Notes under the pieces: generated by a model
Seen by the model: only the letters and a program-made list of their open reading frames with translations
What the model was told of the DNA's origin: nothing
The model's database searches: none
Origin: Ferruginibacter sp.
Lineage (GTDB): Bacteria > Bacteroidota > Bacteroidia > Chitinophagales > Chitinophagaceae
Assembly (NCBI GenBank): GCA_025352525.1
Contig: JANXTG010000053.1
Span: forward strand, 1-43,792
Length of the DNA stretch: 43,792 nt
Direction of reading: 5' to 3'
Translations under genes and position numbers: made by a program
In this document: positions 6,890 through 43,792 of the stretch, in pieces
How the letters are laid out: the number at the start of each line of letters is the position of its first letter
How positions within the stretch are numbered: position 1 is the stretch's first letter

Positions 6890-9800
6890 TTGACAGCTAC
6901 AGCTAAAGTTTTTTTATTCAGTTTCTTTTTTATTCTCCTTTTTTTACAAAATAATAATGTGTGTGCACAAATGGAATTTGTGCAAAACAAAGGGCAGTGG
7001 GATAATAAAGTAAATTACAGAGGTGATTTTGCTAATGGTTCATTCTTCCTCGAAAGTAAAGGTTTTACAGTTTTAATGCATAAAGCAGATGATGTAATAA
7101 AACTTTCAGAATATACGCACAATGGTTCCTCAGTAAAATACAATTCCAAGCAAAGTGTTCCTGATACCTTTACCCTTCATTCAGCAGTTTATAAAGTTAC
7201 TTTTTTAGGAGCAAATACTGCTGCTGAACGTGTGCCCGATAAAATCTCTTTATCCTACAACAATTATTTTATCGGAAATGACCCTTCACACTGGGCAGGC
7301 AATTGCAAAATATATGGCGCAGTAACTTATAAAAACATCTATCCCAATATCGATTTAAGGTATTACAGCGATAAGGATCAGCTTAAATATGATTTTATCG
7401 TAAAGCCAGGAGGTAATCCTTCATCTATTGCCATGCGTTATGATGGTGCAACTTCTCTTTCGATTAAAGAAAAAGAACTTGTTATAAAAACTTCTGTTGG
7501 TGATGTTAAGGAGTTAGCTCCTTATTCTTATCAAACAGGGTTAAAAAACGCTTTAGGCATTAATGCGAAATATGTTATAAGGGATAATGTGGTAACTTTT
7601 AATGTAGATAAATATGATAACAAAGCAACACTTGTAATAGATCCTCAGATTATTTTTGCATCTCTCTCAGGTAGCACTTCCGACAACTGGGGCTATACGG
7701 CAACTCCAGGGCCTGACGGCACTTTTTACGCAGGAGGAATATCTTTTGCTTCGGGTTTCCCAGTATCAGCGGGTGCATTTCAAACCCAGTTTAACGGCGG
7801 TGTTACTGAAGGTGCTTTTGGTGGAGTTGATATAGCTATATTTAAATTTTCAGCTGATGGTAGCCAGAGGGTTTATGCTACTTATTTGGGTGGTAGTGGA
7901 AATGAACAGCCGCATAGTATGATTACAGATGCAGCCGGCAATTTAATTATAGCAGGCAGAAGTAATTCTACTAATTATCCGCTGCTTACGGGAATACCAT
8001 CTACGGGTGCCAATTTTGATATTATTATTACAAAATTTAATGCTGCAGGAAGCGCTTTGATCGGTTCCGTAAAAATTGGCGGTGCTAATGATGATGGCGT
8101 AAACATCAGACCTAAATATGTTGGTTCAGGCGGGGCTGATAGACTAAGAAGAAATTATGGAGATGATGCTAGAAGTGAAGTTATTCTGGATGCAAATAAT
8201 AATGTGTATCTGGCATCTTGTTCACAGTCTTCAGACTTTCCGACTTTTCTTGCAGCACAACCAATTTTTGGTGGTAAACAAGATGGCGTTATTTTAAAAC
8301 TAAGTCCAAATCTTTCAACTCTTTTATATTCAACTTATTTTGGTGGCACAGATGATGATGCATGTTTTGTTGCTTCCATAAATCCTCTAACACAAAACCT
8401 ATACGTTGGTGGTGCTACATCAAGTGCTAATTTACCCGGTAATACAACAGGTACAATCAATTCAACTTTTCAGGGAGATATAGATGGGTTTGTTACTATA
8501 CTTCCACCATCGGGAGGTTCTTTTTTAAAAACTACTTATTTAGGCACAAGTGCTAAAGATCTTGTATACGGACTAAAGTTCGATAAGGTTGGATTTCCTT
8601 ACGTAATGGGAACTACAACGGGTTCTTGGCCTGTTGTAAATGCCGCATTTCAAAATTCAGGTTCTAAACAATTTATATCAAAATTAAAACCCGATCTATC
8701 GGACTATGTTTACTCGACGGTATTTGGAAAAAGCGGAACCGATCCAAGTATTTCTCCAATTGCTTTTTTGGTTGACCGTTGTGAAAATGTTTATGTTTCA
8801 GGTTGGGGTGGTGGTATAAATGTAGGGCAAGGATATTCAACAGGAAATACATCAGGTTTGCCTGAAGTAAATCCGTTATCCCCTATACCCGCACCAGACG
8901 GTAAAGACTTCTATTTTTTTGTATTAAAAAAAGATGCCTCATCACAGTTATTCGGATCTCATTACGGCGAAAATGGTGGTAATACAGGTGACCATGTTGA
9001 TGGCGGTACAAGCCGTTTTGATGCTAATGGTGTAATTTACCAGGCAATTTGCGCCAATTGCCAGGGTAGGGTTTCTAATCCTCAGGTGTTTTTCCCCGCA
9101 ACTGCAAATGCTTGGGCTAGAATAAATGGTGGTAGTGGATGTAACCAGGGTTCAGTAAAAATAGCCATGAATTTTGCCGGTATTGGTGCAGAATTAGAAT
9201 CTACAATTGATGGAAAGGTAAATGATACACTTGGCTGTATTCCATTAACAGTTAGTTTTAAAGATCTTCAAAGAAAGGGTGTAAAATATTACTGGAATTT
9301 TAATTCTTCAGTAAACCCAAATGGGATAGATACAATAACCACTAACCCTGAAGCAGTATTTACATTTAATTTAGTTGGAGTTTACAAAGTAAGATTGATT
9401 TCTGAAGATTCATCTACCTGCAACATTAGAGATACAGCTTATATAAATATTACTGCAGGCAGTAATAAAGTAACAGCGAATTTTAATAAAATTAAAATCC
9501 CCCCTTGCGACAGTGCAATATATAGATTTACAAATACGTCTTTTTCAAGTGCCGGCTCATCATTTACAACTCAATCTTTTGTTTGGGATTATGGTGATGG
9601 TTCTCCTTTGGACACCGCAGGTTTTACTCCTGATCGAATTCACCGTTTCCCGGGTCCTGGAACTTATTTTTTAAAATTAAAAGTTATAGATCCAAGGTTT
9701 TGTAATTCTCCTGTAACGTTAAATGATACCCTAAGAATTAACCCAAAAGTTGTTGCATTACCTGCCAAAATTGCTTTAGGTTGTGTTGGTGATACAATTA

Positions 9801-10604: not shown

Positions 10605-11624
10605 TTGAATAAAATTAAAAAAATATTATTAATACAGCTGATCATGTTTTCAGGAATAATTTCCTTTGGGCAGGATCTGCATTTTTCACAGTTTTTCAAT
10701 TCACCACTTACAACAAATCCAGCAAATACCGGATTTATACCGGATGCTGATTATCGCATTGGTGTTAATTATAGAAACCAGTGGAGCAATATTTTATCAG
10801 CCCCATATAAAACGATGAGTGTTTATGGAGACGCACAATTGTTTAGAGATAAATTAGAAAATGGATGGTTAGGTTTAGGCGGTGTTTTGCTCAGCGATAA
10901 AGCCGGCAGTGGTGGTTTAAGATCAGATAAATTTTATGGATCTATTGCATATCATCAAATGCTTGGATTGAGTAGTTTGTTAAGTGCAGGTTTTAATTTG
11001 GGCTATGTTTCAAAAAGAATTGACCCGAGTGCTTTAAAATTCCCGGATCAGTTTAATGGAAAGTTTTTTGATGCTACGACAGCAACCGGCGTTCAGTTTT
11101 CAAATCTGAGTATTAATTATTTTGATATGCAAGTTGGTTTAAATTACGCCTATTTTCCTAAAGAAGATATTTATATAAATGCTGGTTATTCCATTCATCA
11201 TGTAAACAAGCCAAAAGAAAGTTTTTTTGGTGATAATACAGAAGCTGGCAAAATCCCAATGCGTCATATTGGATTTGTAAATGCTATTTTAAAAGTAAAC
11301 CCAAGGGTTATCATTAATCCCAATATTTATTTTACAACACAACAAAGAGCAATGGAAATTAGTGGAGGAATTAATGCCAATTACAATCTTTCTGAATTTG
11401 GGGAAACGCAGTTGATAGCGGGTTTGTATTACCGTTATAAAGATGCACTAATTCCTACTATAGGTTTTGAAACAAAAAAAACGGCATTTACATTTAGTTA
11501 CGATGTAACAGTTTCTCCCTTAAAAACTTTTAATAATTACCGAGGCGCTGCAGAATTCAGCATTGTGAAAAAAGGTTTTTATCCGGGCAATAGCGACAGA
11601 CAAACTTTATGTCCAAAATTTTAA
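10605..11624 (+). CDS. PorP/SprF family type IX secretion system membrane protein
   Basis: 339 aa from TTG; QDLHFSQFFNSPLTTNPANTGF, YRNQWSNI, C-terminal CPKF; immediately downstream of the gliding-motility C-terminal domain gene. Confidence 0.93.
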   Translation: MNKIKKILLIQLIMFSGIISFGQDLHFSQFFNSPLTTNPANTGFIPDADYRIGVNYRNQWSNILSAPYKTMSVYGDAQLFRDKLENGWLGLGGVLLSDKAGSGGLRSDKFYGSIAYHQMLGLSSLLSAGFNLGYVSKRIDPSALKFPDQFNGKFFDATTATGVQFSNLSINYFDMQVGLNYAYFPKEDIYINAGYSIHHVNKPKESFFGDNTEAGKIPMRHIGFVNAILKVNPRVIINPNIYFTTQQRAMEISGGINANYNLSEFGETQLIAGLYYRYKDALIPTIGFETKKTAFTFSYDVTVSPLKTFNNYRGAAEFSIVKKGFYPGNSDRQTLCPKF

Positions 11625-11728
11625 TTTTATTTAAAACTTTACCTGTCTGTATTTAGCTTTTAAAGAATCTTCTTTTCTCAATTTAAACATTCCTTTATAA
11701 AACCGAACTTTGTACAAAACCTAGCTAC

Positions 11729-13150
11729 ATGAATATTGTTGCAGACAGAACAGCTTGCTTTCGGGAATATTTAGCAGCATTTAAAAATATTGTTGGAGAA
11801 TTATATGTTTTTACAGACGAAGAAACCCTGGACAATTGTGCTAAAGATGAAACTGAAAATCTTTATTTTTTACCGGATATTGTTATAAAACCCCGCACTG
11901 CCGAAGAAATAAGTGAGGTAATGAAAATATGCAATGCGCATAAAATACCTGTAACGCCAAGGGGTGCTGGCACGGGGTTAAGTGGTGGTGCATTGGCACA
12001 TAATGGTGGCGTAGTAATTTCTTTTCAACGCATGAACAGTATTTTAGAAATTGATGAAAACAATTTACAGGTAACAACTGAGCCTGGAGTAATCACTCAG
12101 GTTTTGCAAAATGCTGTTAAAGAGAAGGGATTGTTTTATCCGCCTGACCCAAGCAGTTATGGAAGTTGTTTTATTGGTGGAAATGTTGCAGAAAACAGTG
12201 GTGGTCCCAAAGCAGTAAAGTATGGTGTTGTAAAAGACTATGTTTTAAATCTGCAGATTGTTTTACCTACGGGAGAAATTATCTGGACTGGCGCAAATGT
12301 TTTAAAAAATTCAACCGGTTATAATTTAACGCAGCTTATTGTAGGGAGTGAAGGAACACTTGGACTTGTAACAAAAATTGTATTAAAACTTATTCCTCAT
12401 CCAAAATACGATTTATTAATGCTTGTTCCATTTAATGATCTGGAAAAAGCGGGAGCTGCTGTAAGTGCAATTTTTCGTGCAGGCTACACACCGAGTGCAC
12501 TGGAATTAGTCGAAGCAAATGCTTTAAAAATTGTAAGCAGGTTTGTTGACAGCAGTTCTGTAAAAATTGATGATGACGTAGCAGCCCATATTATTATTGA
12601 AGTAGATGGAAATGATATGGATGTTTTAATGAAGGAAATGGAAGCTATTGCAACTGTACTTGCAGATTATGATTGTGGCGAAATTTATTTTGCAGATGAT
12701 GCGCAGCAAAAAGCTGAATTGTGGAAGTTGAGAAGAAGCGTGGCAGAGGCTGTAAAAATTGATGGGTATACAATAGAGGAAGATACAGTTGTGCCAAGAG
12801 CTGCACTGCCAAAACTTATAAAAGGTATAAAAGCTTTAAGTGTTCAATATGATTTTGAAGTTGTATGTTACGGTCATGCAGGTGATGGTAACTTACATGT
12901 GCGTATAAAAAAAGAAGGATGTGTTTACAGTCTGAACAATGAGAAAATTATTCCTGCATTAAAAGCACTATTTATTCTTATTAAATCGTTGGGTGGTACA
13001 ATTAGCGGTGAGCATGGTATTGGGCTTATACAAAAAGAATTTATTCCAATAATGTTTGATGAAATAACACTAAATATTATGCGTGGAATAAAGAAAACAT
13101 TTGATCCCAATAATATTTTAAATGCTGGTAAAATTTTTGATCTGCAGTAA
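11729..13150 (+). CDS. FAD-binding oxidase, GlcD / D-lactate dehydrogenase-like
   Basis: 473 aa; RTAEEISEVMKICNAHKIPVTPRGAGTGLSGGALA, GGNVAENSGGPKAVKYGVVKDYV, GSEGTLGLVTKIVLKL, CYGHAGDGNLHV, SGEHGIGLIQKEF. Confidence 0.92.
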   Translation: MNIVADRTACFREYLAAFKNIVGELYVFTDEETLDNCAKDETENLYFLPDIVIKPRTAEEISEVMKICNAHKIPVTPRGAGTGLSGGALAHNGGVVISFQRMNSILEIDENNLQVTTEPGVITQVLQNAVKEKGLFYPPDPSSYGSCFIGGNVAENSGGPKAVKYGVVKDYVLNLQIVLPTGEIIWTGANVLKNSTGYNLTQLIVGSEGTLGLVTKIVLKLIPHPKYDLLMLVPFNDLEKAGAAVSAIFRAGYTPSALELVEANALKIVSRFVDSSSVKIDDDVAAHIIIEVDGNDMDVLMKEMEAIATVLADYDCGEIYFADDAQQKAELWKLRRSVAEAVKIDGYTIEEDTVVPRAALPKLIKGIKALSVQYDFEVVCYGHAGDGNLHVRIKKEGCVYSLNNEKIIPALKALFILIKSLGGTISGEHGIGLIQKEFIPIMFDEITLNIMRGIKKTFDPNNILNAGKIFDLQ

Positions 13151-13189
13151 ACGAATCGTTTTTATTTTTGTCTTATTAAATTAAAATTT

Positions 13190-13846
13190 ATGAATATGAT
13201 GAAGTTGTATATGTCTTTTTTTTGTTTAAGTGTTGTGTGTTTAAATGTAAAAGCACAAACTGAAAAAAAAGAAGAGAATGAGGTAATAAAAGGTGGTTTT
13301 AAAAAAGAAAATTTATTTGTCGGCGGTAATGTTGCATTGGGTTTGGGTTCCGGTAACTTTTCAGCTGGAGTGGGGCCATACATTGGCTACAGCATAAACA
13401 AATATATTGATGCAGCTGTTGGTTTAAACTACAGTTATCTTTCCCAAAGAGATTATTACACTACTCAAAAAAATCGTCAGTCTGTAATTGGTCCAAGTGC
13501 ATTTGTAAGATTATATCCTGTAAAATTTTTGTTTGCACATGCACAGTATGAGTATAATTTTATCAAGTATAAACAAATCTATGGCAACGGAATTCCTGAT
13601 AATGTTTATAAGATAAAGGCTTCAAGTTTTTTAATAGGGCCCGGCTTTGCAAGTGGAAGAGATGCTTACAGTAAAAGCTTTTATTATATTTCAGTATTGT
13701 TTGATGTTTTAAAGAATAAAAATTCTCCTTATACTGATAATCTTGGTCGAGTAACGCCAATAATTCGTGCAGGTTATAACGTCGCACTATTTCAGGGCGA
13801 TGGTGGTAGAAGCAACAACAGAAGAAACGAAAGAAGAAGGTTTTAA
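13190..13846 (+). CDS. Putative outer membrane beta-barrel protein, unknown function
   Basis: 218 aa; signal peptide (MKLYMSFFCLSVVCLNVKAQ), GNVALGLGSGNFSAGVGPYIGYSINKYIDAAVGLNYSY barrel-like pattern. Confidence 0.7.
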   Translation: MNMMKLYMSFFCLSVVCLNVKAQTEKKEENEVIKGGFKKENLFVGGNVALGLGSGNFSAGVGPYIGYSINKYIDAAVGLNYSYLSQRDYYTTQKNRQSVIGPSAFVRLYPVKFLFAHAQYEYNFIKYKQIYGNGIPDNVYKIKASSFLIGPGFASGRDAYSKSFYYISVLFDVLKNKNSPYTDNLGRVTPIIRAGYNVALFQGDGGRSNNRRNERRRF

Positions 13847-14379
13847 AGGTATTTTAAAAGTGCGGTCGGCTCACTAATTACGGTAAACTGGTCATCGGGA
13901 TGATTATATAAAAAACCTTCGTCATGCAAGTGTGCCATGTGCGCAACCAGATGATTGTAAAAGCCTGCAGTGTTTAAAATAAAAACCTGCTTACTGTGTA
14001 TCTTTAGCTGGTTCCATGTAAGCATTTCAAAAACTTCATCTAAAGTACCATAGCCGCCCGGCAAAATAATGGCGGCATCACATCTTTCATAAATCATTTT
14101 TTTTCGGTTGTGCATTCCATCCACTACATGTGTTTCTGTAAGTGATTCATGTAATGTTTCCTGAGTTTGCAATAATTCCGGAATAATTCCTGTAACCGTG
14201 CCTTCATTTTCTAAAACTGCATTTGCTACAGCACCCATCAGTCCTCGGTTTCCTCCACCGTAAACAACGGCTATATTTTTTTCTGCCAAAAGTTTTCCCA
14301 GAGCTCTGGTATGTTCTTCGTACAATGGATTTTCTCCTAATTTACTTCCACAAAAAACTGCAATTGCTTTTATACTCAT
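13843..14379 (-). CDS. LOG family protein (TIGR00730-type Rossmann fold, possible nucleotide 5'-monophosphate phosphoribohydrolase)
   Basis: 178 aa; VFCGSKLGENPLY, VYGGGNRGLMGAVANAV, LPGGYGTLDEVFEMLTW. Overlaps the convergent upstream gene by 4 nt. Confidence 0.93.
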   Translation of the reverse strand: MSIKAIAVFCGSKLGENPLYEEHTRALGKLLAEKNIAVVYGGGNRGLMGAVANAVLENEGTVTGIIPELLQTQETLHESLTETHVVDGMHNRKKMIYERCDAAIILPGGYGTLDEVFEMLTWNQLKIHSKQVFILNTAGFYNHLVAHMAHLHDEGFLYNHPDDQFTVISEPTALLKYL

Positions 14380-14514
14380 TTTTACATTTTTATGAATGCA
14401 ATGTGCTCAATTTTTTTATTAAAACAGCATTGGTGCAATTATTTTTTGTTATGCCAACACTCTAAAATTAAAATGTAATACCATAAATCAATATCCATTT
14501 TTTAACTTCACTTC

Positions 14515-15705
14515 ATGAACAAAAACATTTTACATTTATTAAAAATTGCCCAAAAAGAAAACCGATTAATACTCGGTTTAATGAGTGGTACTTCGTTAGA
14601 TGGATTAGATGTGGCTTTGTGTAATTTTAAAGGAAGTGGTATGCATACAGAAATGCAATTGTTGCAGTTTGAAAGTATGCCTTATGACGAAGATTTTAAG
14701 CAGGAGATAAAAACAATTTTCAGTAAAAAAAATGTAGAGCTGCAAAAGCTAACGTTGCTAAACGCATGGGTTGGTTTGCAGCATGGTAAAATGGTCAATA
14801 ATTTTTTACAAAAATGGAATATTAAAAAAGAAGATGTTGATATTATTGCAAGTCATGGCCAAACAGTTTACCATGCTCCTAAAACTTTACATGGCCTTTC
14901 AAAATTCGAAAATGCTACTTTACAAATAGGAGATGGGGACCATATTGCTGTAACAACAAGAATTATTACCATCAGCGATTTTCGTCAAAAAAATATTGCA
15001 GCGGGGGCTGAGGGTGCGCCATTAGCTGTTTACGGGGATTTTATTTTATTTAGTAAAGCAGGAGAAGACAGAATACTTTTAAATATTGGTGGCATTGCAA
15101 ATTTTACTTTTTTGCCGGGAGATATAAACCCTTCTAATATTTTGTGTACTGATGTTGGCCCGGGAAATACAATAATGGATGCTTACATACAACAATATTT
15201 TTCCGGTAAATATTTTGATGAAAATGCTGCTGTTGCCCTGCAGGGCAAAATTGACGAATCCCTTTTATCAGCGTTAAAAGCACATCAGTTTTTTAAAAGT
15301 AATTTTCCAAAAACAACCGGGCCTGAATTATTTAATCTTGCTTATTTATTGGATGCGCAACAAAAATCCAATACAATTAATTTAAGGACATACGATGTAA
15401 TGGCAACGCTTAATAAATTTTCTGCAGATATGATTGTTGAATCAATTTCGACATTAATAAAAAATAAAAATATAATTCTTTACTGCAGTGGTGGCGGTAT
15501 ACACAATCCTTTGTTAATGCAAAATATAAAAAATCAATTGCCCGAAATTTCTTTTAAAACCACAGATGATTTAAATATAAATCCTGATGCAAAGGAAGCT
15601 ATTTTATTTGCGTTGCTTGCAAACGAAGCATTAAGTGGCGGCGAAACGAATTTTGGTAAAGCTGCACCCTCAGTAAGTATGGGAAAAGTAAGTTTTCCTA
15701 ATTAA
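14515..15705 (+). CDS. anmK: Anhydro-N-acetylmuramic acid kinase
   Basis: 396 aa; LGLMSGTSLDGLDVALCNF, ASHGQTVYHAP, LLNIGGIANFTFLP, TDVGPGNTIMDAYIQ, CSGGGIHNPLLM. Confidence 0.95.
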   Translation: MNKNILHLLKIAQKENRLILGLMSGTSLDGLDVALCNFKGSGMHTEMQLLQFESMPYDEDFKQEIKTIFSKKNVELQKLTLLNAWVGLQHGKMVNNFLQKWNIKKEDVDIIASHGQTVYHAPKTLHGLSKFENATLQIGDGDHIAVTTRIITISDFRQKNIAAGAEGAPLAVYGDFILFSKAGEDRILLNIGGIANFTFLPGDINPSNILCTDVGPGNTIMDAYIQQYFSGKYFDENAAVALQGKIDESLLSALKAHQFFKSNFPKTTGPELFNLAYLLDAQQKSNTINLRTYDVMATLNKFSADMIVESISTLIKNKNIILYCSGGGIHNPLLMQNIKNQLPEISFKTTDDLNINPDAKEAILFALLANEALSGGETNFGKAAPSVSMGKVSFPN

Positions 15706-15724
15706 TTTTTTGGAAGGTACAGGT

Positions 15725-16540
15725 CTATTTTAAAGCTTCAATTGCCTTTTTAACACTCCCATTTTTTAGTAATAAATCCATAGCAGTTCTATAATCTTTT
15801 ATACCTGAATGTTCCATCAACATTTTAGTACCTCGGTCCACCAATTTATAATTAGTGAGTTGCATGTTTACCATTTTATTTCCTGCTACTCTTCCAATCT
15901 GTATCATCACCGTTGTTGAAATCATATTCAACACAAGCTTTTGTGCAGTACCACTTTTCATACGTGTACTGCCTGTAACAAACTCGGGTCCAACAACCAC
16001 TTCTATAGGATAATCTACAACTGCACTAAGTGGTGAGCCTGGGTTGCAACTTATAGCGCCGGTCATTATATTTTTAGTTCTGCATACTTCCAATGCAGCT
16101 ATCACATAAGGTGTAGTACCGCTTGCTGCAATACCAATCACAACATCATTTTTATTTATGCCATTTTCTTGCAAATCTTTCCATCCTTGTGTAAGACTAT
16201 CTTCTGCATTTTCTATTGCTTTTTGTATGGCTTTTTCACCGCCTGCAATTATGCCTATTATGATGCCATAAGGCATACCAAATGTTGGCGGTATTTCACT
16301 CGCATCTAAAATACCTAACCGTCCGCTAGTGCCTGCACCTATATAAAATAATCGGCCACCGGCAAGCATTTTGTCAACAATAATAGTTACTAGTTGTTCT
16401 ATTTGTGGAATAGCCAAAGCTACAGCAGCAGCAACGGTTTCATCTTCTTTATTAATATTTGTAAGCAGCTCAAGCACACTCATTTTTCCCAGATCATTGT
16501 AATTGCTTGTGCTCTCCGTAACCCTTATAAAGTCCTCCAT
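15725..16540 (-). CDS. murQ: N-acetylmuramic acid 6-phosphate etherase
   Basis: ORF 15725..16594; start assigned at internal Met (MEDFIRVTESTSNYNDLGKMSV). YIGAGTSGRLGILDASEIPPTFG, GVAVSC-like IAASGTTPYVIAAL, EVVVGPEFVTGSTRMKSGTAQKLVLNMIST. Confidence 0.94.
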   Translation of the reverse strand: MEDFIRVTESTSNYNDLGKMSVLELLTNINKEDETVAAAVALAIPQIEQLVTIIVDKMLAGGRLFYIGAGTSGRLGILDASEIPPTFGMPYGIIIGIIAGGEKAIQKAIENAEDSLTQGWKDLQENGINKNDVVIGIAASGTTPYVIAALEVCRTKNIMTGAISCNPGSPLSAVVDYPIEVVVGPEFVTGSTRMKSGTAQKLVLNMISTTVMIQIGRVAGNKMVNMQLTNYKLVDRGTKMLMEHSGIKDYRTAMDLLLKNGSVKKAIEALK

Positions 16541-16674
16541 TTTATTTTTTATTAATGAATGCAAATGCAATTTACAGCTAAAATTTATTTGCATTTATTT
16601 AAAAACTTTTAGCGGTTTAATAATAAAAAAACAAACTATATTTAACTGCATAAAGTGGTTACAAAATAATTTTT

Positions 16675-18597
16675 ATGGATAACGAAATAACCAAGCCCTA
16701 TCGTTTATTATCTTTCGAAAAAATTGATACCGTTATATACACTTCTACGGAGGAAGTTTGTAATGCTGTTGCAAACGAAATAGCAACACTTATCACTAAA
16801 AAAAATGCTGCGGGAGAAACAACTGTTCTCGGCCTTGCAACAGGGGCAACACCCAAAAAGGTTTATGCTGCATTAATTCGTTTACACAAAGAGCAGGCTT
16901 TAAATTTTGAAAATGTTGTAGCCTTTAATCTTGACGAATATTATGGTTTGCAACCGGATGCTATACAGAGTTACAGCAGATTCATGAACGAAAATTTATT
17001 TTATCATATCAATATAAAAAAAGAAAACTGTTTTATTCCACAGGGAAATTCAAATCCTGACGAAATAAAAAAGCATTGTGAGGCGTATGAACAAAAGATG
17101 GCGTTTTATGGTGGCATAGATTTTCAGTTATTGGGCATTGGTCGTAACGGACATATTGGTTTTAATGAACCCGGCAGCCATGTAAAATCTGTAACAAGAC
17201 TTATTACTCTCGATAATTTAACCCGTTTTGATGCAGCATATGAGTTTGGAGGTCTTGCTAACGTTCCCCGCAAAGCAATAACGATGGGTATTGGCAGTAT
17301 TTTAAAAGCAAAAAGAATTGTACTGCTTGCGTGGGGCGATGCAAAAGCAAATATTATAAGAGAATCGGTTGAAGGTCCGGTAACAGAATTTGTTCCTGCT
17401 TCTTATTTGCAGGGTCATCAAAATGTGCAGTTTGTTTTGGATGAAAGCAGTTCTGTAGAACTCACCCGTATTAAAACACCATGGCTCACAGATGATGTTT
17501 TCTGGAACAAAAATCTGATAAAAAAAGCAGTAACTAATCTCGCCTTTGCGCTGCAAAAATCTATTTTAAAATTAACCAATAACGATTATAATCAAAATGG
17601 GTTAAGCGATTTACTGGCATTGTACGGGCAGGCATACGATATAAATATTGAAGTATTTAACCAGTTACAACACAGCATTACAGGCTGGCCCGGCGGTAAG
17701 CCAAATGCCGAAGATACACACCGGCCCGAGCGTGCAATTCCTGCTAAAAAAAGAGTTCTGATTTTTAGCCCGCACCCTGATGATGATATTATTTCTATGG
17801 GTGGAACTTTTCAGCGATTGGTTGATCAAGGGCATGATGTGCATGTGGCTTACCAAACAAGCGGAAACATTGCCGTGGCCGATGATGAGGCTTTGAGGTT
17901 TATAGAATTTGTAAAAGATTACAATGAGCAGTTTAATTTAAAAAGCGAGCAGACAGAAAAAATGTACTACGATGCCCTTGACTTTTTAAAAGTAAAAAAA
18001 AATGGTGAAAAAGATATTGATGCGTTGCGGCAAGTAAAAGGAATAATACGAAAAGGAGAAGCCAAAAATACCTGTAGGTTTGTAGGCTTGCCTCCGCAGA
18101 ATGCACACTTTTTAGAACTGCCTTTTTACGAAACCGGTCTTGTGGAAAAAAACGAAATAGGAGAGGCAGATTTTAAAATAATTGAAAAAATAATTGACGA
18201 AATAAAACCCCATCAAATTTTTGCCGCCGGCGATTTGGCTGACCCACATGGCACACACCGTGTTTGCCTCGAAGGTGTTTTTGAAGCCGTAAAAAGATTA
18301 AAGCACCACCAATACATGAGTGAATGTTGGGTTTGGTTGTACAAAGGCGCTTGGGCCGAATGGGATATAGATATGATAGAAATGGCTGTGCCCATGAGCC
18401 CTGATCAGGTACTTAAAAAACGTAACGGCATATTCAAACACCAGAGTCAAAAAGACGGTGTGGTTTTTCAGGGGGCAGATAGCCGGGAGTTTTGGAAACG
18501 AGCCGAAGAGCGCAACAAAGCCACGGCAGACCTTTACAACAAACTAGGCCTTGCTGAGTATGCAGCCATGGAAGCTTTCGTGCGGTGGCGGTTTTAA
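16675..18597 (+). CDS. nagB: Glucosamine-6-phosphate deaminase fused to a C-terminal PIG-L/LmbE-like deacetylase domain
   Basis: 640 aa; N-terminal NagB motifs GLATGATPKKVYAAL, FNLDEYYGL, GIGRNGHIGFNEPGS; C-terminal VLIFSPHPDDDIISMGGT and AAGDLADPHGTHRVC. Confidence 0.93.
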   Translation: MDNEITKPYRLLSFEKIDTVIYTSTEEVCNAVANEIATLITKKNAAGETTVLGLATGATPKKVYAALIRLHKEQALNFENVVAFNLDEYYGLQPDAIQSYSRFMNENLFYHINIKKENCFIPQGNSNPDEIKKHCEAYEQKMAFYGGIDFQLLGIGRNGHIGFNEPGSHVKSVTRLITLDNLTRFDAAYEFGGLANVPRKAITMGIGSILKAKRIVLLAWGDAKANIIRESVEGPVTEFVPASYLQGHQNVQFVLDESSSVELTRIKTPWLTDDVFWNKNLIKKAVTNLAFALQKSILKLTNNDYNQNGLSDLLALYGQAYDINIEVFNQLQHSITGWPGGKPNAEDTHRPERAIPAKKRVLIFSPHPDDDIISMGGTFQRLVDQGHDVHVAYQTSGNIAVADDEALRFIEFVKDYNEQFNLKSEQTEKMYYDALDFLKVKKNGEKDIDALRQVKGIIRKGEAKNTCRFVGLPPQNAHFLELPFYETGLVEKNEIGEADFKIIEKIIDEIKPHQIFAAGDLADPHGTHRVCLEGVFEAVKRLKHHQYMSECWVWLYKGAWAEWDIDMIEMAVPMSPDQVLKKRNGIFKHQSQKDGVVFQGADSREFWKRAEERNKATADLYNKLGLAEYAAMEAFVRWRF

Positions 18598-18695
18598 AGG
18601 CTCGGTAATTTTTTTATTTTGGGCTGTGGGCTGAAGAAATTTGTTCAGGTTTTGTTGCGGCTATGCGTTACAATCTTTTTTGTTTTGTCATTCCG

Positions 18696-18715
18696 TGTTT
18701 GTCAAGGGACAAACA
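18696..18715. repeat. Perfect 8-bp inverted repeat with 4-nt loop (TGTTTGTC-AAGG-GACAAACA) in non-coding DNA
   Basis: Read directly; no T-run follows on either strand, so not a typical intrinsic terminator. Confidence 0.6.
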
Positions 18716-19050
18716 AATAAAAAAAGGATTTTCACTACTATCCGCCAGCCCTTGTGCAGTTTTGCTTTTTTGAACTGGATATATTATTTCATAAAATTTC
18801 TGTCTTCGTTTTTATACATCCATAATCTTTTACTTCTGATCTTTTACTTTGCATTTTGTCGAGGCTTGGTTTTTTACCAGCCGATCTAAGAGCTGTTTGT
18901 TCTTAAAATCAATTTATCCTTCTTGAGGATTAGAATATTTATATTGTTATTGACTGGTCGAAAAGCATGATCCGGCGTGTGAAATGAATTGGATTAAAAA
19001 CTCCCAAAGAAAAGATGCAACGTCGGCTTATCAGGTTTATATTTTAATTT

Positions 19051-19200
19051 CTATATCGTTTCTAAAATATGTTTTGTTAAATCGTTTTCTGTGTTGCCTG
19101 TGTTTAAAGTTGAAGCAGGCTCAAAAAGCATAACAGAAACTTCGTTTTCTGCAACCGGTTTGTGTTCGGTTCCTTTGGGAACAATAAGAAGTAAATCAAT
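19051..19200 (-). pseudogene. 3' remnant of a cupin-domain protein gene
   Basis: Reverse-strand frame ending at TAG (complement 19051-19053): IDLLLIVPKGTEHKPVAENEVSVMLFEPASTLNTGNTENDLTKHILETI*, matching the typical C-terminus of small Bacteroidota cupins; in-frame TAG just upstream near 19200, no N-terminal half. Confidence 0.7.
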
Positions 19201-19639
19201 CTATGAGCCACAAGCAAACCAGGTAAATGCTAAAAACTTAAAAGGATATTTATTATTTACTCATGGCAATATGGATGATAATGTACCAGCTTCCAATACC
19301 TATCTGTTAGTTGAAGCTTTGGAAAAAGCCAATAAAGATTTTGACCTCATTATTTTTCCAAATGCCCACCACCGCTATGGAGAAGACAGTTATTACATGA
19401 TGCGCCGCCGTTGGGATTATTTTGTAAAAAACTTAATGGGTGCAACGCCACCAAAAGAATTTGTAATAAAATTGACGGCGTATGAGGAGGTAAAGTGTTT
19501 TCTGTTTAGCTCGTTCAAAGTTGAACTGTTATACTTTTTTCAGAAGAATATTTATTTTAATGGTATAAAATCAAAATTATTATTCTTTTGTTGCCCCGAT
19601 AAATTAATGTCGGGGCAATTTTATTTCTCATTTTTGTAA
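19200..19639 (+). pseudogene. 3' remnant of an S9 family (DPP IV/prolyl oligopeptidase-like) peptidase gene
   Basis: Within ORF 19091..19639: YEPQANQVNAKNLKGYLLFTHGNMDDNVPASNTYLLVEALEKANKDFDLIIFPNAHHRYGEDSYYMMRRRWDYFVKNLMGATPPKEF, the S9 catalytic C-terminus with Asp and His regions; beta-propeller and GxSxGG nucleophile region missing. The frame then runs through a terminator hairpin. Confidence 0.8.
19591..19624 (+). terminator. Rho-independent terminator-like hairpin after the S9 remnant
   Basis: TTGCCCCGA (19591-19599) / TCGGGGCAA (19610-19618) perfect 9-bp stem followed by TTTTATTT. Confidence 0.8.
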
Positions 19640-19728
19640 GTAAAAATAATTTGAGAATATTTTTTGATTAACTTGTACAAAGTAGAAGTTCTTCTACAAC
19701 AAAAAATAATTTATTTTTTATTCTTATC

Positions 19729-21204
19729 ATGAAAAAAATTATTGCTCCCTTATTCTTACTGTTTCTAAATCAAATTGCATTTGCCCAGGCTAAAATAATT
19801 ACAGTTTCCACTACAGATGTAGTTGGAGGGACGGCTACTAATTATGTCGCCGGGGGAAATACATATAATTGGGCGACCTCGCCTAATAATGTACAAAAAA
19901 GAGTAACTGGTTTTTCAACAGCCGCAGGCAGTTTCGGCTATGCAAGTGCATTAGCTGGAGTAGTAAAACTTAAACGTTCTACGGGTGGCACAACAACCGG
20001 AGATTTTTCTCTTGTGTGGTCAGAAGCAAGTGTCACGGCCTCTCCATTTAATATGCAAGCAGCCATTCCCGCAAATATGGAAAGTTATTTTAGTGCTAAC
20101 ATATTTAATAAGGGAACAGATAATTTGTTTGACAATACATCTTCTAATAGTAATAATATTGAAAGATTGGATTGGATATTGAGCGCAGGTTATTCAACTG
20201 CCAATGTAACAAAAACTGGTTTTGCCGTTTTTGAAAGAGGTGCTGACGATGCACATGATCCTTTTGATATAGCCGCTATAACTGGGTTAGATGTTTCTGG
20301 TAACCCAAATGCTTATGGTCCAGTATTAAGAATTCTATCTACCAATTATGGAAATATTACAAACTCTTCAGTGTCTTACAGGATACTTAAAGGTGCAAGC
20401 GGTACCAATCTTTTAGATGCCAGCACAAATACTCAAAATAGAGGCGGCGTCTTTTTATCGTTAAGCGATTTGGGAATCACCGCAGGTGCTACAGTATATG
20501 GTTATTCCTTGCTTGCTGCTGATTTTCCTTCCAGTGCTACTTCTACTGATGTTGTTAATACAAGCAACACTACTAATTTTCCTGTTAATACTGGAGCCCT
20601 CTCGGGCGGTATAGATTTAATAGCTACAACTGGCATTTTTGCTGATTTAACTGTGCTTCCGATATCAATAGAATCTTTTACAGCAAAGCAAGAAAATTAT
20701 AACAAACTATATTGGAAAATAGCAGATCCGGAAAATGAAATAAATAATTTTACAATTTTGAAAAGTACAAATGCTGTTGATTTTTCTGAAATTGGAAATG
20801 TCAAATCCATAAATAATATTGATAATTACAATTTTACTGATTACAATTCTGCAAAAAATTACACAAGCTGCTATTATAAACTAGTAATAAAAAAGAAGAA
20901 TGGTCAGTCTGTTTTTTCAAGCATTGTAAAAATAAATGGCATCAAAAATACTGCTGCTACCATATTACCAAATCCTGTTCTTACAGATGCAGTAATTAAT
21001 TGCAATGTTTTAAAAGATGGATACATCAATATGCTTATCATTAATACGAAAGGCGAAGAAATAATTAGTCAAAAAACAAAAGTACAAAAAGGTTCAAATA
21101 ATATTCAATTGAAGAAGGTAGAAGCGCTAAAACCAGGCTCATACATTGTTAAAATTATATTACCTGACGGACATGCACAGTCCATACCGTTCATTAAAAA
21201 ATAA
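19729..21204 (+). CDS. Secreted protein of unknown function with T9SS type A sorting domain
   Basis: 491 aa; signal peptide MKKIIAPLFLLFLNQIAFAQ; Ser/Thr/Asn-rich body; PISIESFTAKQENYNKLYWKIADPENEINNFTILKSTN linker; C-terminal ATILPNPVLTDAVINCNVL...GSYIVKIILPDGHAQSIPFIKK. Confidence 0.85.
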   Translation: MKKIIAPLFLLFLNQIAFAQAKIITVSTTDVVGGTATNYVAGGNTYNWATSPNNVQKRVTGFSTAAGSFGYASALAGVVKLKRSTGGTTTGDFSLVWSEASVTASPFNMQAAIPANMESYFSANIFNKGTDNLFDNTSSNSNNIERLDWILSAGYSTANVTKTGFAVFERGADDAHDPFDIAAITGLDVSGNPNAYGPVLRILSTNYGNITNSSVSYRILKGASGTNLLDASTNTQNRGGVFLSLSDLGITAGATVYGYSLLAADFPSSATSTDVVNTSNTTNFPVNTGALSGGIDLIATTGIFADLTVLPISIESFTAKQENYNKLYWKIADPENEINNFTILKSTNAVDFSEIGNVKSINNIDNYNFTDYNSAKNYTSCYYKLVIKKKNGQSVFSSIVKINGIKNTAATILPNPVLTDAVINCNVLKDGYINMLIINTKGEEIISQKTKVQKGSNNIQLKKVEALKPGSYIVKIILPDGHAQSIPFIKK

Positions 21205-21218
21205 TATAAATTTTTACT

Positions 21219-21252
21219 AATAAAAAACAGGAGTTAATGCCTGTTTTTTATT
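21219..21252. terminator. Bidirectional intrinsic terminator between convergent genes
   Basis: AATAAAAAACAGG (21219-21231) / CCTGTTTTTTATT (21240-21252): perfect 13-bp inverted repeat, 8-nt loop, T-run on both strands. Confidence 0.88.
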
Positions 21253-21283
21253 GCAGGTAAAAAATCAAGAAATTTATCCAAAA

Positions 21284-22438
21284 CTACACTCTTACATAAA
21301 TTCTCTTCCTGTCCATGACCCATGCAAAAAACCACATCATTCCAATAAAACAAATAGCATAAATGAGCGATCCTAATCTTGGTTCTACGGGTAAAATAGG
21401 TTTACAAATATGTTCATAAAACCAGCCAAAAGGAGAGAGATAATTTTGTTTGCCTGCTGCATTTTTTGCACCGGGAATTCTTATTAATGCCAGTAACCTT
21501 GGCAGTACGCCACTGAGCACAAAAATGAATAGTGCGTTTTTCCCAAACACATCAAAAAATCGGCTCCATGCGCCTTTGGCATTTTTAAAATCTATTAAAT
21601 AAATCATTACCGAAAGTGTGAGCAATGCAAGACCTGTGGTGTAAACGGTATAACTGCTCGACCATATTTTCTTGTTGATTGGGAAAACCATATCCCATGC
21701 AAGCCCGGTAACAATGAGCACGCAACCGGCTACAAATAACCCATTAAGCATTTCCTGCGTTTTACCTTTTTGTAAAATATAATTGCCAGCTAGGTAGCCC
21801 AGAATTACTTGTACAATTCCGGTAAAACTGTTCATCAAACCTTCGGGATCAAAAGCTACTCCTTCACCCTTGTACATGTGGCTTTCGCTTAAAATATCTT
21901 TATCTATTCCGGTGCCGAACCAGCCTGCCAAACTAAATGGATCAGATGGATTCATTACCACACATAAAAACCAATAGCCTAACAAAATAAATGCGCCTGC
22001 TACAAATGCGCCCCGTACTTTAAAAAAATGAACGACGATGGATGCAAAAAAATAACACACAGCTATGCGTTGCAACACACCAAAAATTCTCAATGTATCA
22101 AAAGGCTTAGCAATAAAATTTCCGGCATCATCATACTTTATAAATGGAAACCAATTTAAAAATATACCAATAAAAAAAATCAGCAATGTTCTCTTTACAA
22201 TTTTATACCAAAAAGTTTTTTCGCCTGCAGCATTCAGTTTAGGCATTACAAAAGCCATTGCATTACCTACAGCAAATAAAAAAAAAGGAAATACCAAATC
22301 TGTTGGTGTGCAACCATGCCATGCTGCATGCTCCAATGGCGGGTAAATAAAACTCCATGAACCGGGATTATTTACCAGTATCATCAGCGCAACTGTGGCT
22401 CCTCTAAAAACATCAAGCGAATAAAAACGTTGATTCAT
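21284..22438 (-). CDS. Multi-pass membrane protein, NagX/DUF5009 (heparan-alpha-glucosaminide N-acetyltransferase-like, COG4299) family
   Basis: 384 aa; MNQRFYSLDVFRGATVALMILVNNPGSWSFIYPPLEHAAWHGCTPTDLVFPFFLFAVGNAMAF; multiple TM segments. Confidence 0.9.
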   Translation of the reverse strand: MNQRFYSLDVFRGATVALMILVNNPGSWSFIYPPLEHAAWHGCTPTDLVFPFFLFAVGNAMAFVMPKLNAAGEKTFWYKIVKRTLLIFFIGIFLNWFPFIKYDDAGNFIAKPFDTLRIFGVLQRIAVCYFFASIVVHFFKVRGAFVAGAFILLGYWFLCVVMNPSDPFSLAGWFGTGIDKDILSESHMYKGEGVAFDPEGLMNSFTGIVQVILGYLAGNYILQKGKTQEMLNGLFVAGCVLIVTGLAWDMVFPINKKIWSSSYTVYTTGLALLTLSVMIYLIDFKNAKGAWSRFFDVFGKNALFIFVLSGVLPRLLALIRIPGAKNAAGKQNYLSPFGWFYEHICKPILPVEPRLGSLIYAICFIGMMWFFAWVMDRKRIYVRV

Positions 22439-22512
22439 GGGTTAATTTTAAAAGAAGGAGTTAATTTTTTTATCAAGGTAAATTATAAAATTCTTTTAAA
22501 AAATAGTAAGGG

Positions 22513-22543
22513 TTTGATTTTATGGTTTAAAAACTTACTTTCG
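22513..22543 (+). promoter_or_regulatory. Candidate Bacteroidota promoter (TTTG -33, 19-nt spacer, TACTTTCG -7) upstream of the SSS operon
   Basis: TTTG 22513-22516, spacer 22517-22535, TACTTTCG 22536-22543 (one mismatch to TAnnTTTG). Confidence 0.4.
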
Positions 22544-22589
22544 ATTTTCTAATATCTGTACTGACACCGAATTTTCCTAAAAACTGATT

Positions 22590-24050
22590 ATGTCGCCATA
22601 CCTGCTTTTGTCTTTTGTAATTGGTTATTTTATTTTATTGTTGATAGTGGCCTGGTACACGAGCCGTAATTCTAACAACGAATCTTTTTTTATTGGTAAT
22701 AAAAATTCTAACTGGATGTTGGTGGCTTTTGGCATGATCGGTACTTCTTTGTCGGGTGTTACTTTTGTTAGTGTACCTGGTGGTGTCGGTAAAGAATCCT
22801 TTGCGTATTTTCAAATTGCAATAGGTTATCTAATTGGTTATTTTGTAGTAGCGTTTGTGTTACTGCCATTGTATTACAGGCTAAACCTAACATCAATATA
22901 TGATTATTTAAGCGGCAGACTTGGTGTAAAATCGTACAAAACAGGCGCATCATTTTTTATATTAAGCAGAACATTAGGGGCTACTGCACGATTGTATTTG
23001 GTAGTTAAAATTTTGCAGGATGCCATTCTTTCACAACTTGGTGTTCCGTTTTGGGTTACTACACTTATCATTTTATTAATGATATTAATTTATACCTATG
23101 AAGGTGGTGTAAAAACAATTGTATTTACAGATACGTTGCAAACTACTTTTATGCTGACTGGTTTGGTAGTTTGTGTGTTGTACATTTTACATACTATGAA
23201 TCTTAATTTGTTTTCTGCTTTGGAGATAATGAAGGATAAAGGTTATTCGAAAGTATTTTTTACAGACCCACAAAGCAAATTATTTTTTATAAAACAAATA
23301 CTGGCAGGTGCATTTATTACTATTACTATGACAGGTTTGGATCAGGAAATGATGCAGAAAACAATTTCAGTAAAACGCTTAGGTGATTCCCAAAAAAATA
23401 TTATTACGCTGTCTATTATACTTGTATCTGTATTGTTGTTGTTTCTTTTTTTGGGCGGGCTCTTACACCTTTACGGAACGCAGCAGGGTGTTACTGTTTC
23501 GGGTGATAAATTATTTCCTGAGTTAGCGCTTCACCACATGCCGCAGATCGTTTCTGTAATATTTATTATTGCATTAATTTCTGCATTGTTTCCAAGTGCG
23601 GATGGGGCTATTACTGCACTTACTTCGTCTATATGTATAGATATTATTGGTATGCAAAGGCGTAATGATATGACGGAAGTAACCAAAAAGAAAATGAGAC
23701 AAAGAGTGCATTTAATGGTAGCATTCGTTTTCCTTTTGTTTGTTTTGGTATTTTACCAGGTAAATAATCCGAGTATGATTGGCGTTATACTTAAAGTTGC
23801 TGCTTACACTTATGGGCCACTTTTAGGACTGTTTACTTTCGGGATAATTAGTAAAAGAAATGTGCATGATGACTTGGTACCATTTGTATGTATTGCTGCA
23901 CCATTAATCTGTTTTTTTGTAGATAAGTTTCAAAATGTATTATTGGGGGGGCTGCAAATTGGATCAGAACTTTTATTGCTTAATGGTTTTCTTACATATA
24001 TTGGTTTGTTAATAGTATCTAAAAAAGTGGAGGAACAAATAGCTAATTAA
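22590..24050 (+). CDS. Sodium:solute symporter (SSS) family protein
   Basis: 486 aa, many TM segments; NSNNESFFIGNKNSNWMLVAFGMIGTSLSGVTFVSVPG, SRTLGATARLYLVVKIL, TMTGLDQEMMQKTISV. Confidence 0.93.
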   Translation: MSPYLLLSFVIGYFILLLIVAWYTSRNSNNESFFIGNKNSNWMLVAFGMIGTSLSGVTFVSVPGGVGKESFAYFQIAIGYLIGYFVVAFVLLPLYYRLNLTSIYDYLSGRLGVKSYKTGASFFILSRTLGATARLYLVVKILQDAILSQLGVPFWVTTLIILLMILIYTYEGGVKTIVFTDTLQTTFMLTGLVVCVLYILHTMNLNLFSALEIMKDKGYSKVFFTDPQSKLFFIKQILAGAFITITMTGLDQEMMQKTISVKRLGDSQKNIITLSIILVSVLLLFLFLGGLLHLYGTQQGVTVSGDKLFPELALHHMPQIVSVIFIIALISALFPSADGAITALTSSICIDIIGMQRRNDMTEVTKKKMRQRVHLMVAFVFLLFVLVFYQVNNPSMIGVILKVAAYTYGPLLGLFTFGIISKRNVHDDLVPFVCIAAPLICFFVDKFQNVLLGGLQIGSELLLLNGFLTYIGLLIVSKKVEEQIAN

Positions 24051-42801: not shown

Positions 42802-42848
42802 AATGACGCAGGTTTTGTTTTAAGTTGAAAAATGATATGTTGCCCAAG

Positions 42849-42916
42849 CGCTGCGGGATAGTAGCGAAAAGCCCACAATGAAGCGCAGCGAAATGAGGAC
42901 TTGCAGCGAATAGCCC
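42849..42916. repeat. GC-richer intergenic element with inverted repeat and duplicated AGCGAAWAGCCC motif
   Basis: CGCTGCG (42849-42855) / CGCAGCG (42884-42890); AGCGAAAAGCCC (42863-42874) and AGCGAATAGCCC (42905-42916). Confidence 0.6.
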
Positions 42917-43025
42917 GAATAAAATTTGAATAGAATGCCTAGGATGAGAGCGCCAAGCCTTCTTTTAAAATATTATTAATTAATTTAGCCTTTTACTAAA
43001 CAACTTTTCAAACAACAAACTTGCT

Positions 43026-43792
43026 ATGTATAATTTATTAAAAGGAAAAAAAGGAATCATATTTGGTGCGCTGGATGAAAAATCTATTGCATGGATTACC
43101 GCTCTTAAATGCCATGAAGAAGGTGCAGAAATTGTACTGAGCAATGCGCCTGTGGCCATGCGCATGGGAGAAATAAATAAGCTTGCAGAAAAAATTGGCG
43201 CACCTGTAATTGGTTGTGATGTAAGCAGCGCCGATGATGTAGAAAACCTGATTGCAAAAACAATGGAGCATTTTGGTGGTGGCTTTGACTTTATTTTACA
43301 CTCCATAGGTATGAGCATAAATGTGCGCAAAGGCAAGCATTATACCCAAATAGATTATACACATAACCTTAAAACTTTTGAAATTAGCAGCATGAGCCTG
43401 CACAGGGTTTTGGCTTGTTGTATGAAGCATGATGCATTGAATGAATGGGCCAGTGTAGTTGCACTTACCTACATTGCTGCGCAAAGGGTTTTCCCTGATT
43501 ATAATGAAATGGCTGATGCAAAATCTTTATTGGAAAGTGTTGCACGGAGTTTTGGTTATCACTACGGGGTTAAAAAACATGTTCGTGTAAATACAGTATC
43601 TCAATCACCAACAAGAACTACTGCAGGTAGTGGTGTAAAGGGATTTGACGGATTTATTTCTTATGCGGAAAAGATGAGTCCCCTTGGTAATGCAAGTGCA
43701 GAAGATTGTGCCAACTATTGTGTTACGCTTTTTAGTGATCTTACAAAAATGGTAACAATGCAAAATTTATTTCACGACGGTGGTTTTTCTAA
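43026..43792 (+). CDS. fabI: Enoyl-[acyl-carrier-protein] reductase FabI, truncated by window edge
   Basis: Frame from ATG 43026: MYNLLKGKKGIIFGALDEKSIAWITALKCHEEGAEIVLSNAPVAMRMGE...FILHSIGMS...YNEMADAKSLLESVARSFGYHYG (Y-x6-K); open to the end. Absent from the ORF track for lack of a stop. Confidence 0.95.
   Translation, partial: MYNLLKGKKGIIFGALDEKSIAWITALKCHEEGAEIVLSNAPVAMRMGEINKLAEKIGAPVIGCDVSSADDVENLIAKTMEHFGGGFDFILHSIGMSINVRKGKHYTQIDYTHNLKTFEISSMSLHRVLACCMKHDALNEWASVVALTYIAAQRVFPDYNEMADAKSLLESVARSFGYHYGVKKHVRVNTVSQSPTRTTAGSGVKGFDGFISYAEKMSPLGNASAEDCANYCVTLFSDLTKMVTMQNLFHDGGFS

Follow-up and report, generated by a model that had tools for sequence, protein, structure and literature searches.

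How did the 3' ends of two unrelated genes come to lie back to back in a contig of an uncultured Ferruginibacter-like bacterium, each having lost its 5' part at the same point? The window, that is the whole stretch of 43,792 nucleotides analysed here, is contig C229 of the genome G000 (3.08 Mb in 247 contigs, 98% complete, 1.7% contaminated), and the comparison set comprised 93 congeneric genomes, this one included. An initial annotation had seen at the site a cupin gene on the minus strand and an S9 peptidase gene on the plus strand, both cut short by a single deletion. The features of the site and its surroundings are listed in Table 1.

Table 1. Features at and around the cupin/S9 join (coordinates are those of the window)
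Feature	Position	Strand	Remarks
Glucosamine-6-phosphate isomerase/PIG-L gene ("NagB")	16675-18597		Left of the remnants
Flavo-1 RNA (RF01705) copy	18650-18754	minus	Rfam gathering match, 51.2 bits; between the NagB gene and the remnants, outside the scar
Cupin 3' remnant	19051-19190 (translated piece to 19194)	minus	Final ~46 codons and stop; residues ~1-73 gone
Spurious 182-aa ORF	19091-19639	plus	Composed of antisense cupin DNA, the S9 tail and a read-through of ~50 residues
Cupin/S9 junction	19188-19191		Blunt, without visible filler; DNA alignments with L097/G087 (S9 side) and G084/G002 (cupin side)
Secreted DPP-IV-type S9B peptidase, 3' remnant	19191-19493	plus	Final ~95 of ~724 codons; catalytic Asp and His regions kept
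Terminator-like hairpin 3' of the S9 remnant	19590-19619	plus	12 pairs, then T-rich; 1 found against 0.8 expected by chance
491-aa T9SS-type protein	19729-21204		Right of the remnants; weak secretion-tail match
HGSNAT/DUF5009 gene	21284-22438	minus	Next after the 491-aa protein
Second Flavo-1 copy	~42813-42931		Inverted relative to the first; DNA similarity only

Two gene remnants and their blunt join

The plus-strand piece is the catalytic C-terminus of an S9 peptidase, as initially described. The segment 19191-19471 matches Peptidase_S9 (PF00326, E-value = 4.1e-13) at profile positions 133-210 of 213, i.e. over the last ~78 positions of the profile, and is 71-88% identical to the intact S9 genes of relatives (~724-730 aa). 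The best relative is a 724-residue protein at locus L097 of Ferruginibacter sp. GL140_3_metabat_121, 88% identical over its C-terminal ~95 residues; it carries the DPPIV_N (PF00930) and Peptidase_S9 domains of the DPP-IV-like S9B enzymes. The remnant shares with them the C-terminal alpha/beta-hydrolase similarity. In contrast to those enzymes it is a fragment with neither the N-terminal propeller nor the catalytic serine, the alignment beginning after the GHSGGG serine motif of the relatives, and its stop is frameshifted. When the G000 genome was searched with residues 1-625 of an intact S9 protein, only paralogues of 27-32% identity were returned, and nowhere else in it does a match to the S9 tail exceed 42% identity.

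The minus-strand piece is equally genuine as a cupin C-terminus. Its translation ending at 19051 (LLIVPKGTEHKPVAENEVSVMLFEPASTLNTGNTENDLTKHILETI, followed by the stop) is 73% identical (E-value = 7.5e-17) in one alignment, and 71% identical over residues 74-118 in another, to the intact 119-aa cupin of genome G002, which itself matches Cupin_2 (PF07883) in Pfam (2e-12). The 47-aa piece by itself has no Pfam match. Its C-terminal 46 residues place it with the small single-domain cupins of this family, from which it differs in that the first ~73 residues are gone, and with them the HxH part of the metal site; the complete pair of cupin motifs 1 and 2 is lacking, residues ~74-119 alone being left. 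An intact relative of this cupin is present in about 20 congeners. In the search of the 98%-complete G000 genome with the intact protein, the 3' piece is the sole match, and residues 1-73 were found nowhere.

A separate cupin fragment of ~30 residues, adjoining the CoaE gene, was observed in genome G008 (L055, about 9226-9315; G008:C19:38225-38314). Loss of the cupin apparently occurred repeatedly among these genomes, because this fragment stands at the CoaE-adjoining site where G015 and G079 keep an intact cupin.

The two pieces meet at one clean breakpoint, from which their 3' ends face outward, and relatives carry both genes at full length. S9 homology begins at 19191 (GTAAATC, paired with GGTAAAACG in L097), and cupin homology extends to at least 19188, possibly 19190. 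The single join of the initial annotation is thereby borne out; its position is slightly to the left of the 19195-19205 first proposed, and the microhomology that was to be looked for there amounts to at most ~2 nt in the DNA alignments of both sides. When the DNA of 18880-19728 was compared with the 93 genomes, each match covered either the cupin side or the S9 side, and one across the join was found in the window alone.

The 182-aa ORF called across the join had been suspected of being false, and it is indeed an artefact of the join. The frame that stays open across the breakpoint is the one point in favour of two conserved short genes or of a new functional fusion ORF, readings that we consider very improbable. 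The joined arrangement occurs in 0 of the 92 other congeneric genomes, and the candidate of conserved short genes was rejected on this ground. As to a fusion, the ORF is built of antisense cupin DNA and of read-through beyond the old stop, it contains neither the catalytic serine nor the propeller, and promoter-like signals are not in excess. That the join created a chimeric ORF (antisense cupin plus S9 tail) that is now expressed and kept is scarcely credible.

Neither piece contains an internal stop. The dN/dS values against intact relatives (0.087/2.19 for S9 against L097, 0.13/2.5 for the cupin against G084) resemble those of intact-gene pairs and are a rough guide only, dS being near saturation. 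Taken as such, they suggest that the bulk of the divergence arose under selection, and the break would be recent because dN/dS is still low in both pieces. The S9 tail lacks 2 nt between 19479 and 19480 relative to L097, G087 and G068, so that the ancestral S9 stop (19491-19493) is out of frame. It also deviates at two of the 34 columns with a conservation of 95% or more, with a proline changed to alanine and a glycine changed to arginine; the latter (codon 19373) directly follows the catalytic histidine and is a glycine in 82 of 84 homologues. Among the 85 sequences, remnant included, two show two departures from such near-invariant columns and one shows three. The frameshifted stop and the conserved-column departures are signs of lost constraint. 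The site is a pseudogene pair in ordinary gene decay.

The flanks of the join

Two real gene halves might have been wrongly united in the contig by the assembler. The assembly is in 247 contigs, and a blunt join with slight decay is what a false join is expected to look like. However, the missing halves are not present elsewhere in the assembly, no shared repeat able to mislead an assembler lies at the join, and the frameshifted S9 stop and the lost near-invariant glycine would be left unexplained. Moreover, both flanks match the same relative, G084, mostly at ~76-84%: the left one (10858-18757) corresponds to contig C220 of that genome (~76-92%) and the right one (21284-41467) to its contig C147 (~77-84%). 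The LOG-family gene (13843) has the symporter gene (22590) as its neighbour, in unchanged order, in G082, G068, G022, G029, G079, G089 and G090; because these neighbours are kept in congeners, the left and right flanks preserve an ancestral order, and both sides of the join are parts of a single region. The DUF5009 gene of G087 adjoins the MurQ and AnmK genes, which in the window stand across the interval. This conserved flanking gene order makes an assembly chimera at 19190 unlikely.

In several congeners, the genes for AnmK, MurQ, NagB/PIG-L, the T9SS-type protein and DUF5009, as well as the remnants, are missing between the LOG and symporter genes, and the interval 13843-22590 therefore looks like an insertion hot spot. 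Its NagB-DUF5009 part contains extra genes and has a Flavo-1 repeat as one boundary. In the relatives' loci compared, no match was found for the 273 bp to the left or the 237 bp to the right of the remnants, and a search of these loci for the origin of the 491-aa T9SS-type gene gave no close match.

The Flavo-1 copy at 18650-18754 has 13 DNA matches in its own genome, itself included, and the gathering score is also passed by several further copies in the sampled G000 loci and by one in G084. With these copies, Flavo-1 is a dispersed element in this genome. Contig C220 of G084 ends about 190 bp past its own Flavo-1 copy. A scar made directly by a Flavo-1 rearrangement was considered and is not supported, because ~300 bp separate the cupin stop from the nearest copy. 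In the library searched, no literature on Flavo-1 was found.

A segment of ~21.6 kb (21284-42955) has the opposite orientation in the closest relative, G084, where 16 bp separate the FabI-gene block (42955-43792 of the window, reversed) from the end of the DUF5009 gene. Gene order in outgroups suggests that this inversion arose in the G084 lineage.

Origin of the join

The initial annotation regarded the two genes as former divergent neighbours. The congeners do not bear this out. No cupin of this family occurs in the flanks (up to about 6-10 kb) of the 91 S9 loci, and S9 is found near one of the 32 cupin loci, the window itself, and near none of the intact ones. Intact divergent cupin and S9 genes were looked for in related genomes, and none were found; where both genes share a contig they are convergent, 41 kb apart in G079 and 470 kb apart in G067. 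The shared divergent promoter proposed with this arrangement is likewise unsupported, as it would need both genes to have moved here first, which is seen in no relative.

We favour, with moderate confidence, a scar left when a non-homologous event truncated both genes. What lies in the DNA is two remnants, their missing 5' parts, a blunt join and the onset of decay. One illegitimate event, recent in this lineage, would have joined a break in the cupin gene to a break in the S9B gene, with loss of the 5' part of each. In its simplest form this event would be a deletion, acting on two genes already present in the NagB/PIG-L-HGSNAT/DUF5009 interval with their 5' ends facing and possibly with other DNA between them. 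The initial proposal that one deletion removed both 5' halves stands as far as the losses coincide at one join; the deletion itself, and with it the presence of both genes at the site beforehand, is what we infer. A deletion after the genes came together and a larger illegitimate rearrangement would each fit the data. Speaking against a local deletion, no relative has the two genes close together, the relatives' sites lie on other G000 contigs from which both genes are gone, and the DNA directly beside the remnants (273 and 237 bp) is without a match in the relatives' loci compared. In either form, no product would be made from the site.

These vacated sites bear on the possibility, which we entertain tentatively, that truncated fragments were brought together by inversion or translocation, or were inserted already broken, without ever having been adjacent intact genes here. 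Relatives hold the two genes at unrelated positions. In G082 the S9 gene has an MBL-fold gene on one side and a gene for an M24 peptidase on the other, of which the G000 counterparts are on contigs C30 and C60, without S9; a Flavo-1 copy precedes the M24 gene in G000. In G084 the cupin gene is divergent to a gene whose G000 counterpart starts on contig C38, where a penicillin-acylase-like gene (named from its sequence) stands next and the cupin is absent. Because the relatives' positions map to other, vacated G000 contigs, the pieces may have moved to the present site as fragments. The NagB-DUF5009 interval, with its extra genes and its Flavo-1 boundary, also lies at one end of the segment inverted between G000 and G084. 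However, the assignment of this inversion to the G084 lineage speaks against such an origin, and the site of any single relative is a weak guide to the ancestral one because almost every congener has other genes beside S9. The G082 and G084 sites thus hint at the ancestral places, as clues and not as proof.

Returning to the scar of a non-homologous event, bacterial genes broken by illegitimate recombination ordinarily leave truncated remnants with blunt joins and early decay mutations, which are absent from relatives. The junction site shares all four properties in this general comparison, for which a literature search on truncated bacterial genes returned nothing specific. It differs from the ordinary case in that a single join cuts two unrelated genes, their 3' ends facing outward.

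The finding is an ordinary gene-decay scar, and its wider consequence is small. It is a clear example of recent decay in which a single breakpoint terminates two genes. At such scars ORF callers create false hybrid genes, in this case one of 182 aa, for which the Pfam label would be that of a peptidase.
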